A DNA stretch of 64,000 nt from Curtobacterium citreum (GTDB taxonomy: Bacteria; Actinomycetota; Actinomycetes; Actinomycetales; Microbacteriaceae), in NCBI RefSeq assembly GCF_006715175.1, contig NZ_VFMQ01000001.1, forward strand, positions 1,736,001 to 1,800,000. Reading direction: 5' to 3'. The first letter of the stretch is position 1; each line of letters starts with the position of its first letter. The notes beneath the pieces are model-generated. The model did no database searches. It saw only the letters and a list, made by a program, of their open reading frames with translations, and had not been told where the DNA came from. Position numbers and translations under genes: made by a program. This document shows positions 61,862 to 63,891 of this stretch, piece after piece.

Positions 61862-63121
61862 ATGCGCTTCCTCATCCCGATCCTGGTCGGGCGGATCCTC
61901 CGCGCCCTCGCCCGTGCGCGGGGCGGCGGGTCCGCCTACCCGGGCTACATCGTCCTGAAGCTCGTGCCGGACTTCCTGCAGCACGTCACGAAGCAGTTCC
62001 CGAACGGCGTCGTCTTCGTGCTCGGCTCGAACGGCAAGTCCACGACGACGCACATGATCTCGGACATCGTCCGGGCGCACGGGCTCCGCGTGTTCACGAA
62101 CCCCTCCGGCGCGAACCTGCCGCAGGGCATCGCCTCCGCGCTCCTGTCCGAGGTGTCGCTGACCGGCCGGCTGAAGGCCGACATCGGCATCCTCGAGGTC
62201 GACGAGGCGTTCGCGGTCGAGCTCGCCGGCATCCTGTCGCCGTCCACGGTGACGATGCTCAACGTCCAGGTCGACCAGCTCTACCGGTTCTTCGAGACCG
62301 AGCGCGTCGCGACGATGATGCTCGACACGGCGGCGCTGTCCTCCGCGAACGTCATCACCAACCGTGACGACCAGTTCCTCGACGCCTACGCGGCGCGGAC
62401 CGGGCAGCGGGTGCTGCGCTTCGGTGCGAGCACCGAGGTGGTCGCCGCCGCGCCGAACGGCCTGCAGAACGCCGACGACTTCGACCGGACCGACGGCGAG
62501 CCGAACCCGGCGGAGTCCGAGGTCGTCGCGAACACCGGCGACGGTGCGACGATCCGCTTCGAGGGCACCGACATCCCGGTGCGGCTGCCCGCGCGTGGCC
62601 TGCACTACGCGGTCGACGCGGCCGCAGCGACCGCGACGGCGAGTGCTGCGCTCGGAGCGCAGTTCCGTCCGGACGCCGTGACGAAGGCCTTCGGCACGAT
62701 GAAGCCCGCGTACGGCCGTGGCGAACGCCTGCCGATCGCCGGGGAGTCCGCCGAGTTCACGATGTTCAAGAACGCCGCGAGCCTGCAGCTCAACCTCGAC
62801 GCCCTGCCCGCGCACCCGGAACAGGTGCTCATGGCGATCGACGAGGGCACGCCGGACATCTCCTGGATCTACGACATCGACTTCTCGAACCTCGACCACG
62901 TCGACGTCGTGTCCGGCGACAAGGCGTGGCAGATCGCGATCGCGCTCGAGCACGCCGGAGTCCGCATCGGCCGGGTCGAGCCCGACGTCGAGGCCGCGAT
63001 CAAGCTCATGCAGAGCCTCGGTGCGACGACGAGTGGCACGAAGAACTTCATCGTCAACTACGAGATCATGATGGTCGCCCGCAAGGCCCTGGGCCACGGC
63101 GACATGGAGAAGACGGCATGA
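61862..63121 (+). CDS. murT: MurT-like Mur ligase lacking the zinc ribbon
   Basis: This 419-aa protein is the homologue of MurT, the ATP-using half of the lipid II isoglutaminyl synthase. The P-loop reads GSNGKSTT (residues 55-62), and the C-terminal DUF1727 domain keeps the essential DISWIYDIDF (Asp338/Asp340). Normal MurT has a four-cysteine zinc ribbon in its middle; this protein contains no cysteine at all, and residues about 205-240 replace the ribbon with an acidic stretch (NADDFDRTDGEPNPAESE). It lies in an operon with rpoD and gatD and overlaps gatD by ATGA. Confidence 0.88.
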   Translation: MRFLIPILVGRILRALARARGGGSAYPGYIVLKLVPDFLQHVTKQFPNGVVFVLGSNGKSTTTHMISDIVRAHGLRVFTNPSGANLPQGIASALLSEVSLTGRLKADIGILEVDEAFAVELAGILSPSTVTMLNVQVDQLYRFFETERVATMMLDTAALSSANVITNRDDQFLDAYAARTGQRVLRFGASTEVVAAAPNGLQNADDFDRTDGEPNPAESEVVANTGDGATIRFEGTDIPVRLPARGLHYAVDAAAATATASAALGAQFRPDAVTKAFGTMKPAYGRGERLPIAGESAEFTMFKNAASLQLNLDALPAHPEQVLMAIDEGTPDISWIYDIDFSNLDHVDVVSGDKAWQIAIALEHAGVRIGRVEPDVEAAIKLMQSLGATTSGTKNFIVNYEIMMVARKALGHGDMEKTA

Positions 63122-63891
63122 CCGCCGACCGGTTGACCATCCTGCACGTGTACCCGCGCCAGATGGGCGTCTCGGGTGACCGCGGCAACGTCGCGGCGCT
63201 CGTGCGTCGAGCCGCGGCCGCCGGCCTGGACACCGAGGTCGTCGAGTACGCCCCGGGCGGTGCCCTGCCCACGGCGGCGGACGTCGTCGTGGTCGGCAAC
63301 GGCCCGCTGAGCGCCATGCGGTCGCTCGGCGCGGACGTCGCACGCATCGGCGCCCCGCTCCGTGACCTCGCCGGGTCCGGCGTCCCGGTCGTCGCCGTCG
63401 GCGGTGGCTTCGACCTCGCGACGAACGAGGTGGTCCCGACCGAGGGCGCTCCGGTGGCCGGCTTCGGCGTCTTCGACGCCCGCGCGGTCCGCGGCGCGGA
63501 GCGGCGCGTCAACTACTTCGTGCTCGAGACGCGCTACCCGCTGCTCGACGGGGCCGCGACCCGCGTCGCGGGGTTCGAGGACCACGCGACCCGCATCGAG
63601 CTCGCCGCGGCGGTGACGCCCTTCGCGGACGTCGTCTCGGGCGGCGGCAACCAGGCCGGATCGCCGGTCGAGGGCGCGATCGTCGGGACGTCGTTCGGCA
63701 CGCACACCCAGGGGCCGATCCTGCCCCTCAACCCGCAGCTGACCGACGCCGTGCTCGCTGCCGCGACTGCCCGTGTCGGACGGGAGTACACGCCGGACGC
63801 GGCGCAGACCGAGACGGTCGACCGGTACGCGCGCGAAGCGCGCGCGACCATCGACCGGTACGTCGACAAGGCGTTCAAGCGCATCGCCTGA
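63118..63891 (+). CDS. gatD: GatD-like protein with a dead glutaminase site
   Basis: This 257-aa class I amidotransferase-fold protein pairs with MurT. In active GatD a Cys in the AICGGYQ motif and a His in GTYLHGP form the glutaminase centre. Here the corresponding positions are Gly95 (VAVGGGFD) and Gln198 (GTHTQGP), and the usual GGGQD loop is GNGPLS. The N-terminal HVYPRQMGVSGDRGNVAALV and the fold are retained. It therefore cannot hydrolyse glutamine by the known mechanism and may position another amine donor. Confidence 0.85.
   Translation: MTADRLTILHVYPRQMGVSGDRGNVAALVRRAAAAGLDTEVVEYAPGGALPTAADVVVVGNGPLSAMRSLGADVARIGAPLRDLAGSGVPVVAVGGGFDLATNEVVPTEGAPVAGFGVFDARAVRGAERRVNYFVLETRYPLLDGAATRVAGFEDHATRIELAAAVTPFADVVSGGGNQAGSPVEGAIVGTSFGTHTQGPILPLNPQLTDAVLAAATARVGREYTPDAAQTETVDRYAREARATIDRYVDKAFKRIA

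Follow-up and report, generated by a model that had tools for sequence, protein, structure and literature searches.

The locus examined here raises the question of what a cell-wall amidating enzyme may still do once its glutaminase subunit has lost the residues of catalysis. The usual MurT-GatD pair puts ammonia on a cell-wall building block. A murT-like and a gatD-like gene occur together in a stretch of 64,000 nucleotides from Curtobacterium citreum (contig NZ_VFMQ01000001.1, positions 1,736,001 to 1,800,000; hereafter the window), a member of a genus whose wall is of type B2-beta and holds D-ornithine (D-Orn). In type-B peptidoglycan, the alpha-carboxyl of D-Glu carries the cross-bridge. 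Comparison of these genes with their relatives somewhat favours the reading that the pair would be a descendant of MurT-GatD that neither makes nor uses ammonia, ligating instead to D-Glu the first amino acid of the type-B cross-bridge. What the comparison shows is the loss of the catalytic Cys, its conservation, its separate origin in named Eubacteriaceae, and a locus with racemase-like and alternative ligase-like genes; the substrate, the acyl-phosphate chemistry, and the part played by GatD are inferred.

The lost glutaminase centre and the intact operon

The features of the pair, all on the forward strand, are as follows.

61862..63121, +, murT-like gene, 419 aa; Pfam Mur_ligase_M and MurT_C above cut-off; no Cys, no zinc ribbon
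62024..62044, +, P-loop GSNGKST of MurT (ATP-binding); motif kept
62873..62875, +, MurT Asp338; kept, corresponding to S. aureus Asp349
63118..63891, +, gatD-like gene, 257 aa; Pfam GATase_3 above cut-off; without the catalytic Cys and His
63178..63180, +, GatD Asp21; kept, equivalent of S. aureus Asp19 and S. pneumoniae Asp32
63295..63312, +, GNGPLS of GatD; replaces the oxyanion loop GGG(S/Q)D (GGGSD in S. aureus)
63400..63402, +, GatD Gly95; position of the catalytic Cys (S. aureus Cys94)
63412..63414, +, GatD Asp99; position of Gln in the CGGYQ motif, acidic (D/E) in several clades lacking the Cys
63709..63711, +, GatD Gln198; position of the catalytic His (S. aureus His189)

The GatD residues were assigned by alignment to S. 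aureus GatD (PDB 6gs2/5n9m), which bore out what a preliminary description had seen in the sequence: Gly95 in the place of the catalytic Cys, Gln198 in that of the catalytic His, and GNGPLS as an altered oxyanion loop. Extracts of two reports state that the S. aureus GatD variants C94G and C94S gave no lipid II amidation (PMC6113224, PMC6085368). Since both Cys and His are replaced here and these S. aureus variants are inactive, it is most unlikely, judging from sequence, that Curtobacterium GatD would act as a standard glutaminase. The AlphaFold model of GatD (predicted local distance difference test, pLDDT, 92.1) had GatD structures as its top nine Foldseek matches, with query template modelling (TM) scores of 0.77–0.84, and that of MurT (pLDDT 88.6) had MurT chains as its best matches by E-value (query TM 0.49–0.67). 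Both proteins exceeded their Pfam cut-offs (MurT_C PF08353, 34.2 versus 25 bits; GATase_3 PF07685, 40.9 versus 27 bits) and missed the NCBIfam equivalog cut-offs for isoglutaminyl synthase (MurT, 91.1 versus 800 bits; GatD, 77.7 versus 450 bits).

MurT was confirmed to hold no cysteine and to keep its ATP-site motifs; the EVDEA acids and SGAN (Asn of GAN) are also kept. Two other early assignments for this subunit were abandoned. Asp338 had been taken as the catalytic residue of the Mur ligase, and its S. aureus equivalent, Asp349, is described in part of one report as the third member of the glutaminase triad, D349N abolishing activity (PMC6113224); an extract of another states that the equivalent D355A change in S. 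pneumoniae MurT only reduces activity (PMC6085368). The third acid of the glutaminase is in fact kept on both proteins, as MurT Asp338 and GatD Asp21. The missing zinc ribbon had been counted as part of the glutaminase loss, a coupling that was ruled out: the ribbon is also missing in many actinobacterial MurTs whose GatD retains the catalytic Cys (Cys+), and it is present in Eubacteriaceae MurTs whose GatD does not (Cys-less).

The operon is intact and coupled, as first proposed, with four bases between the end of the upstream sigA and the start of murT, and an ATGA overlap of murT and gatD. Between pairs drawn from four loci of the genus, dN/dS (ratio of nonsynonymous to synonymous substitution rates, NG86 method) was 0.06–0.19 for MurT and 0.12–0.29 for GatD, and the motifs GGG[FY]D and GTH[TA]QGP were found in 54 and 53, respectively, of 55 Curtobacterium-type proteins (71–100% identity to the query over most of the length). 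Both genes are under purifying selection and not decaying, which upholds the earlier impression of a maintained pair. A second MurT-GatD in the genome had been named as an observation that would speak against the proposal; a search of the source genome (G000, one 3.6-Mb contig) gave one MurT_C match, one GatD match, and no further copy of either. The named close homologues are nearly all from Curtobacterium, with one 86% match labelled Neobacillus.

Cys-less pairs in Microbacteriaceae

Microbacteriaceae are described as a type-B wall family in a portion of one report (PMC10978784), and an extract of another gives Rhodoluna as B2-beta (PMC4156110). A total of 199 genomes of the family were searched (genomes, loci and proteins bear handles beginning with G, L and P). 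The 119 in which GatD was read represent 71 genera; 97 held Cys-less copies only, 18 Cys+ copies only, and four both (G054, G066, G124, and G163). Elsewhere in the order, GatD was Cys+ in all 48 genomes read. The residue at the Cys position of the Cys-less copies was G, A, H, S, N or T, and named proteins of this kind came from Curtobacterium, Subtercola, Glaciihabitans, Microbacterium esteraromaticum, M. cremeum, Naasia, and Tropheryma whipplei. By exclusion, 131 of the 199 genomes were classed as native Cys-less, GatD having been read in 87 of these, and genomes without any match above 52 bits, the level of other Mur ligases, were classed as MurT-less.

The Cys+-only genomes include those of loci L042, L049, and L083, with G003, G024, G088, and G181 among them; nine of the ten tested had a single match to the alanine racemase (Alr) family, and G003 and G024 carried a DDDVH-type MurE. 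The MurE type was rejected as a proxy for wall type: D[FHY][HNQ]PR was found in 30/30 Cys-less Microbacteriaceae rows and also in 21/25 MurT-less rows, one of these 21 with Gln before the motif.

A separate origin in Eubacteriaceae

The wall of Acetobacterium is of type B. Three genomes picked with a 16S probe, a metagenome-assembled genome (MAG) of Acetobacterium woodii, A. dehalogenans DSM 11527, and E. callanderi FD, each contain a single MurT, which has the zinc ribbon, and 3′ of it a GatD lacking both Cys and His. In these GatDs, Cys is replaced by Gly (VTGT) and His by Leu (FTNTLGP), and the oxyanion loop reads CPPGE or CSPGE. Across their family, 40 genomes were searched, of which 36 had MurT, and the best copy was read in 35: low-scoring MurTs, 27 of 28 being read, were all paired with a Cys-less GatD, and the eight high-scoring ones all with a Cys+ GatD. 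As for second copies, that of G475 is Cys-less, and no GatD was found for that of G476. Parts of two reports bear on these walls, one table listing B2-alpha beside A types for Eubacterium (PMC11382707 Table 1) and one extract giving Orn, Lys, and Ser for E. limosum (PMC4791908). A MnmA-like gene lies directly 3′ of the Cys-less pair in three Eubacteriaceae (L424 5808–6836, L425 6086–7126, L426 3882–4949), the L424 copy matching tRNA_Me_trans.

In a quick-search tree of 102 MurT rows, the native Microbacteriaceae Cys-less MurTs grouped in a single clade (SH-aLRT 100), and no fewer than five changes were needed to explain the Cys state. A joint clade of the Microbacteriaceae and Eubacteriaceae Cys-less MurTs was rejected by the approximately unbiased (AU) test (p-AU 1.24e-5), for which groups were set by Cys state, though after the tree had been seen. 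Because the test rejects a common clade, the Eubacteriaceae Cys-less pair has an origin separate from that of the Microbacteriaceae. In Acetobacterium and E. callanderi, a second lineage of type-B wall, the Cys was thus lost independently, and uncultured Bacillota share this loss with them.

MurT was also found in 135 of 398 Bacillota genomes, of which the 30 best-scoring and 13 picked low-scoring copies were read. GatD accompanied 29 of the 30 best, all Cys+ (the His region being missing or disrupted in two), and 11 of the 13 low-scoring ones, all Cys-less.

An exchangeable slot between sigA and parE

Two further genes of the window frame the pair on its left side.

59041..60366, +, major facilitator superfamily (MFS) transporter; Pfam MFS_1; upstream of sigA
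60559..61857, +, sigA-like sigma factor; Pfam Sigma70 r1.2–r4; directly upstream of murT, left border of the exchangeable locus

The first gene 3′ of gatD, past the window end, encodes a gyrB/parE-like subunit, and a gene similar to the MFS gene occupies the same place in several relatives. The order sigA-murT-gatD-...-parE recurs in six widely viewed native loci (the window, L421, L422, L479, L281, and L282); sigA adjoins Cys-less pairs in L416, L417, L421, L422, and L479, and in L423 parE stands beside a native pair with no sigA called. BLAST gave no GatD match in L281–L284; a divergent Cys-less open reading frame is present in L281 and L282, and L284 ends in the contig. No sigA or parE was called beside the Cys+ pairs in the five loci viewed (L411–L415). 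The strongly reduced genome G015 (0.93 Mb) retains the whole sigA-murT-gatD(Cys-less)-AlrA-AlrB-parE cluster (L479), and its GatD motifs are those of protein P0093, named Tropheryma whipplei.

The native pair is not the sole occupant of this slot. Eleven Microbacteriaceae genomes hold another pair, here called H-type, with His at the Cys position and Leu or Ile at the His position in 11/11 read, and its MurTs group with Bacillota Cys-less MurTs on the tree. That these might be diverged native copies was rejected (L169 and L170 joined to the native clade, p-AU 1.33e-5, in a test with long branches and with groups that were defined once the tree was known). In all five H-type loci with wide flanks, sigA, parE or both lie beside the pair, and no genome had both a native and an H-type pair among the matches listed. 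A second foreign-looking type (L090 and L370, from G123 and G053) lies near parE in G123. An ATPgrasp_ST gene adjoins seven of the 11 H-type pairs in the flanks at hand, and also the pair of the Bacillota genome G772. Such ATPgrasp_ST-like genes (PF14397 in the three tested) recur by H-type pairs or in the locus of a CofE-like protein in L417, L419, L430, L427, L463, L464, L466–L471, and L473.

This CofE-like protein (F420_ligase family) stands after sigA in MurT-less genomes, where other genera have MurT-GatD, and is a candidate alternative cross-bridge ligase. All 13 MurT-less loci read (L461–L473) have it, together with AlrA by parE, the latter by construction since these loci were picked by Alr matches; sigA was in view in 11 and ATPgrasp_ST in nine. 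In 80 chosen genomes, it was found in 27/36 MurT-less, 0/18 Cys+-only, 0/11 H-type, and 0/13 native ones, and a 37–39% identical relative occurred in 2/2 L090-type genomes; its presence versus that of MurT gave a Fisher p of 1.7e-11, uncorrected for kinship. Different ligase-like proteins therefore exchange in one slot, often travelling with amino-acid-making genes, and it is mainly on this account that the pair is read as a wall amino-acid ligase.

Racemase-like and transaminase-like neighbours

An Alr-family gene lies within ~1.5 kb of gatD in 15 of 30 Cys-less loci (L002–L031), and near none of the Cys+ pairs (0/22, L092–L113; 0/30, L122–L151), with a Fisher p of 1.6e-8 uncorrected for kinship; the 30 loci are the best matches to the Curtobacterium protein, not a random sample, and three genomes stand on both sides of the comparison. 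For L032–L091, only ~300 bases were fetched 3′ of gatD, and neighbours are not visible there. Wherever AlrB stands with a full-length AlrA (12/12 loci), the motif of the pyridoxal phosphate (PLP) lysine is present in AlrA, which has no VSYG, and the VSYG tyrosine motif in AlrB, which has no such lysine. Because these lesions (L420–L422, L461–L465, L471, L472, L474, and L475) are complementary, an obligate AlrA-AlrB heterodimer is suggested. In Curtobacterium itself, an AlrA-type gene lies beside a complete alr at G000 3545509–3547691 (L476).

Two or more Alr-family matches were found in 25/37 native, 15/23 MurT-less, 1/10 Cys+-only, 2/8 H-type (one of the two being a split match), and 2/2 L090-type genomes tested, so that extra racemases go with the native and MurT-less classes and not with the H-type. 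Genes of the EctB (diaminobutyrate transaminase) kind complete the picture: one in the sigA-parE locus of G057 (L464 3405–4670) is above the TIGR02407 cut-off, a relative lies by the Cys-less pair of G177 (L372 3–617; Pfam match on a piece), and in G466, which belongs to Eubacteriaceae, another adjoins a murE-like gene (L409 2915–4123). These EctB-like genes point to diaminobutyrate in these walls, and, together with the racemase-like neighbours, would fit a D-diamino acid as substrate.

Proposed function and alternative explanations

According to the reading preferred here, MurT would bind the lipid-linked muropeptide and ATP and activate the alpha-carboxyl of D-Glu2, a step to which the kept motifs and fold point, presumably through an acyl phosphate. 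GatD, a dead glutaminase, would be kept as the partner required for a working MurT, and it may also contribute to the pocket or route through which an amino acid enters in place of ammonia. In Curtobacterium, the substrate would most likely be D-ornithine, and the product a D-Glu bearing the first residue of the type-B cross-bridge.

The preliminary description had proposed such a ligase and raised the question whether the loss tracks type-B walls. The part that stood is that the loss is widespread and maintained (101/119 Microbacteriaceae genomes), that the sole pair of Acetobacterium and Eubacterium is Cys- and His-less and of separate origin, and that racemase- and transaminase-like genes are neighbours; several observations speak against a strict link with type B. 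In a family described as type B, Cys+ pairs alone occur in 18 of the 199 genomes, and a further 36 (four of them less than 90% complete) gave no MurT, nine of these being also without the CofE-like protein; either the walls of the Cys+-only genomes and of those lacking both MurT and the CofE-like protein are different, or other enzymes act there. The joint loss of Cys and His is not needed either, the His being retained in 52 of the 104 Cys-less Microbacteriaceae copies read, and one native Cys-less clade has an altered Asp338 region (RDPSYFWPVD).

The wider distribution weighs in the same direction. One superclade (SH-aLRT 99) unites the Cys-less MurTs of Eubacteriaceae with Bacillota L248–L250 and the H-type rows, and the Cys loss of Eubacteriaceae is therefore older than the family. 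L241 falls within the Eubacteriaceae clade, and of the genomes of L241 and L248–L250, G618, G700, and G547 have a DNPR-type MurE, which we take to be the diaminopimelate type; for this reason, Cys loss in the superclade is not tied to type B. A DNPR MurE also accompanies the Cys-less pairs of further lineages, in G492, G577, G641, G716, and G838. A search from Cys-less queries listed 120 proteins (P0132–P0251), 115 of them Cys-less, and the Cys-less class is wider than the known type-B lineages. MAG names among these proteins point to Bacillota, and one to Fusobacteria, with the families TGSS..LHGP, TGNA..TGP, and GT.G..FTNTLGP. The Bacillota Cys-less pairs may add another substituent, such as glycine.

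The same holds for several details of the locus. The racemase pair does not adjoin the Curtobacterium operon and is also present in MurT-less genomes; most of the H-type genomes tested, and 12/37 native ones, have no additional Alr copy; the parE-Alr stretch of G006 (L474) lies ~240 kb from its pair; and in G053 the pair is by neither sigA nor parE, its sigA-parE slot having only AlrB-AlrA.

Some of these observations suit an amino-acid ligase that, in all clades or part of them, uses glycine or an L-amino acid and adds the first residue of a B1-type bridge or a simple alpha-carboxyl substituent. The 12 of 37 native Cys-less genomes with a single Alr match, one clade with an altered SW-Y-D motif, and the Cys-less pairs beside a DNPR MurE in Bacillota would all agree with it. 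It was nevertheless judged unlikely, given the racemase-like genes by 15/30 loci, the EctB-like genes by the G177 pair and the G466 murE-like gene, and the D-Orn of Curtobacterium walls. Less probable again is that MurT, its partner no longer a glutaminase, still makes D-isoglutamine from free ammonia. Carbamoyl-phosphate synthetase I, which works without its Cys, offers a precedent, Asp338 and the MurT ATP site are kept, and, according to part of one report, S. aureus MurT-GatD uses ammonia directly at pH 8.5, with GatD still required (PMC6085368). However, the GatD pocket is changed far beyond the Cys and carries fixed clade-specific motifs, and free-ammonia use leaves the racemase-like and alternative ligase-like neighbours unexplained. 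Mass amidation would also compete with the type-B bridge for the alpha-carboxyl.

A non-catalytic relic or regulator, kept to bind lipid II or another protein, would accord with a GatD that is dead as a glutaminase by sequence, and yet the ATP-binding and acidic Mg-site motifs of MurT are kept, the pair is under purifying selection, and other ligase-like proteins fill the slot where it is missing; we regard this as very improbable. The preferred cross-bridge ligase has a bolder extension, which we put forward tentatively and hold to be somewhat more doubtful than probable: the sigA-parE slot could be a modular cross-bridge cassette in which three ligase types exchange, namely the native dead-glutaminase MurT-GatD, a Bacillota-derived one, often with an ATP-grasp protein, and the CofE-like one. 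Each would act together with a racemase heterodimer, its PLP lysine supplied by AlrA and its catalytic tyrosine by AlrB, or with another amino-acid source, a diamino acid would be placed onto the D-Glu alpha-carboxyl, and GatD, once an ammonia source, would have turned into an amino-acid-binding subunit at least twice.

Significance and comparison with known systems

The catalogue of group B walls is decades old (Schleifer and Kandler, as cited in an extract of PMC11382707), and a literature search of open PMC papers found no enzyme attaching the type-B bridge to D-Glu. If the cross-bridge ligase is real, it names the enzyme of this step for much of Microbacteriaceae and for Acetobacterium/Eubacterium, and it represents a glutamine amidotransferase subunit repurposed through the loss of its nucleophile. 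Automated annotation, with names like "lipid II isoglutaminyl synthase", probably mislabels genes of this kind.

The nearest known system is the MurT-GatD lipid II isoglutaminyl synthase (S. aureus 6gs2/6h5e, S. pneumoniae 6fqb, S. pyogenes 9sq9), which has the same gene order, the Mur-ligase middle and MurT_C domains, and the GATase_3 fold, and shares with the Curtobacterium pair the P-loop, the Asp349 equivalent, and the overall fold. The Curtobacterium pair differs in lacking the Cys, the His, and the zinc ribbon, in its altered oxyanion loop, and in occupying a distinct locus, where relatives often carry racemase-like genes. The amino-acid ligases MurC-MurF have a fold like that of the window MurT, for which MurF gave Foldseek query TM scores as high as 0.68, and the chemistry proposed for the pair would be alike, with ATP-dependent carboxyl activation followed by attack of an amino acid; unlike them, the window MurT is without the N-terminal UDP-binding domain, needs a GatD partner, and would act on a lipid-linked substrate. 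F420-0:gamma-glutamyl ligase CofE (PF01996) gives its family to the protein of the MurT-less genomes, which is absent from the window and far under the CofE equivalog cut-off (30.6 versus 180.65 bits), its putative role following only from its position. AslFm, the ATP-grasp D-aspartate ligase of type A4 walls, also adds a D-amino acid for a cross-bridge, but it has an unrelated fold and attaches its substrate to the Lys side chain, not to D-Glu.

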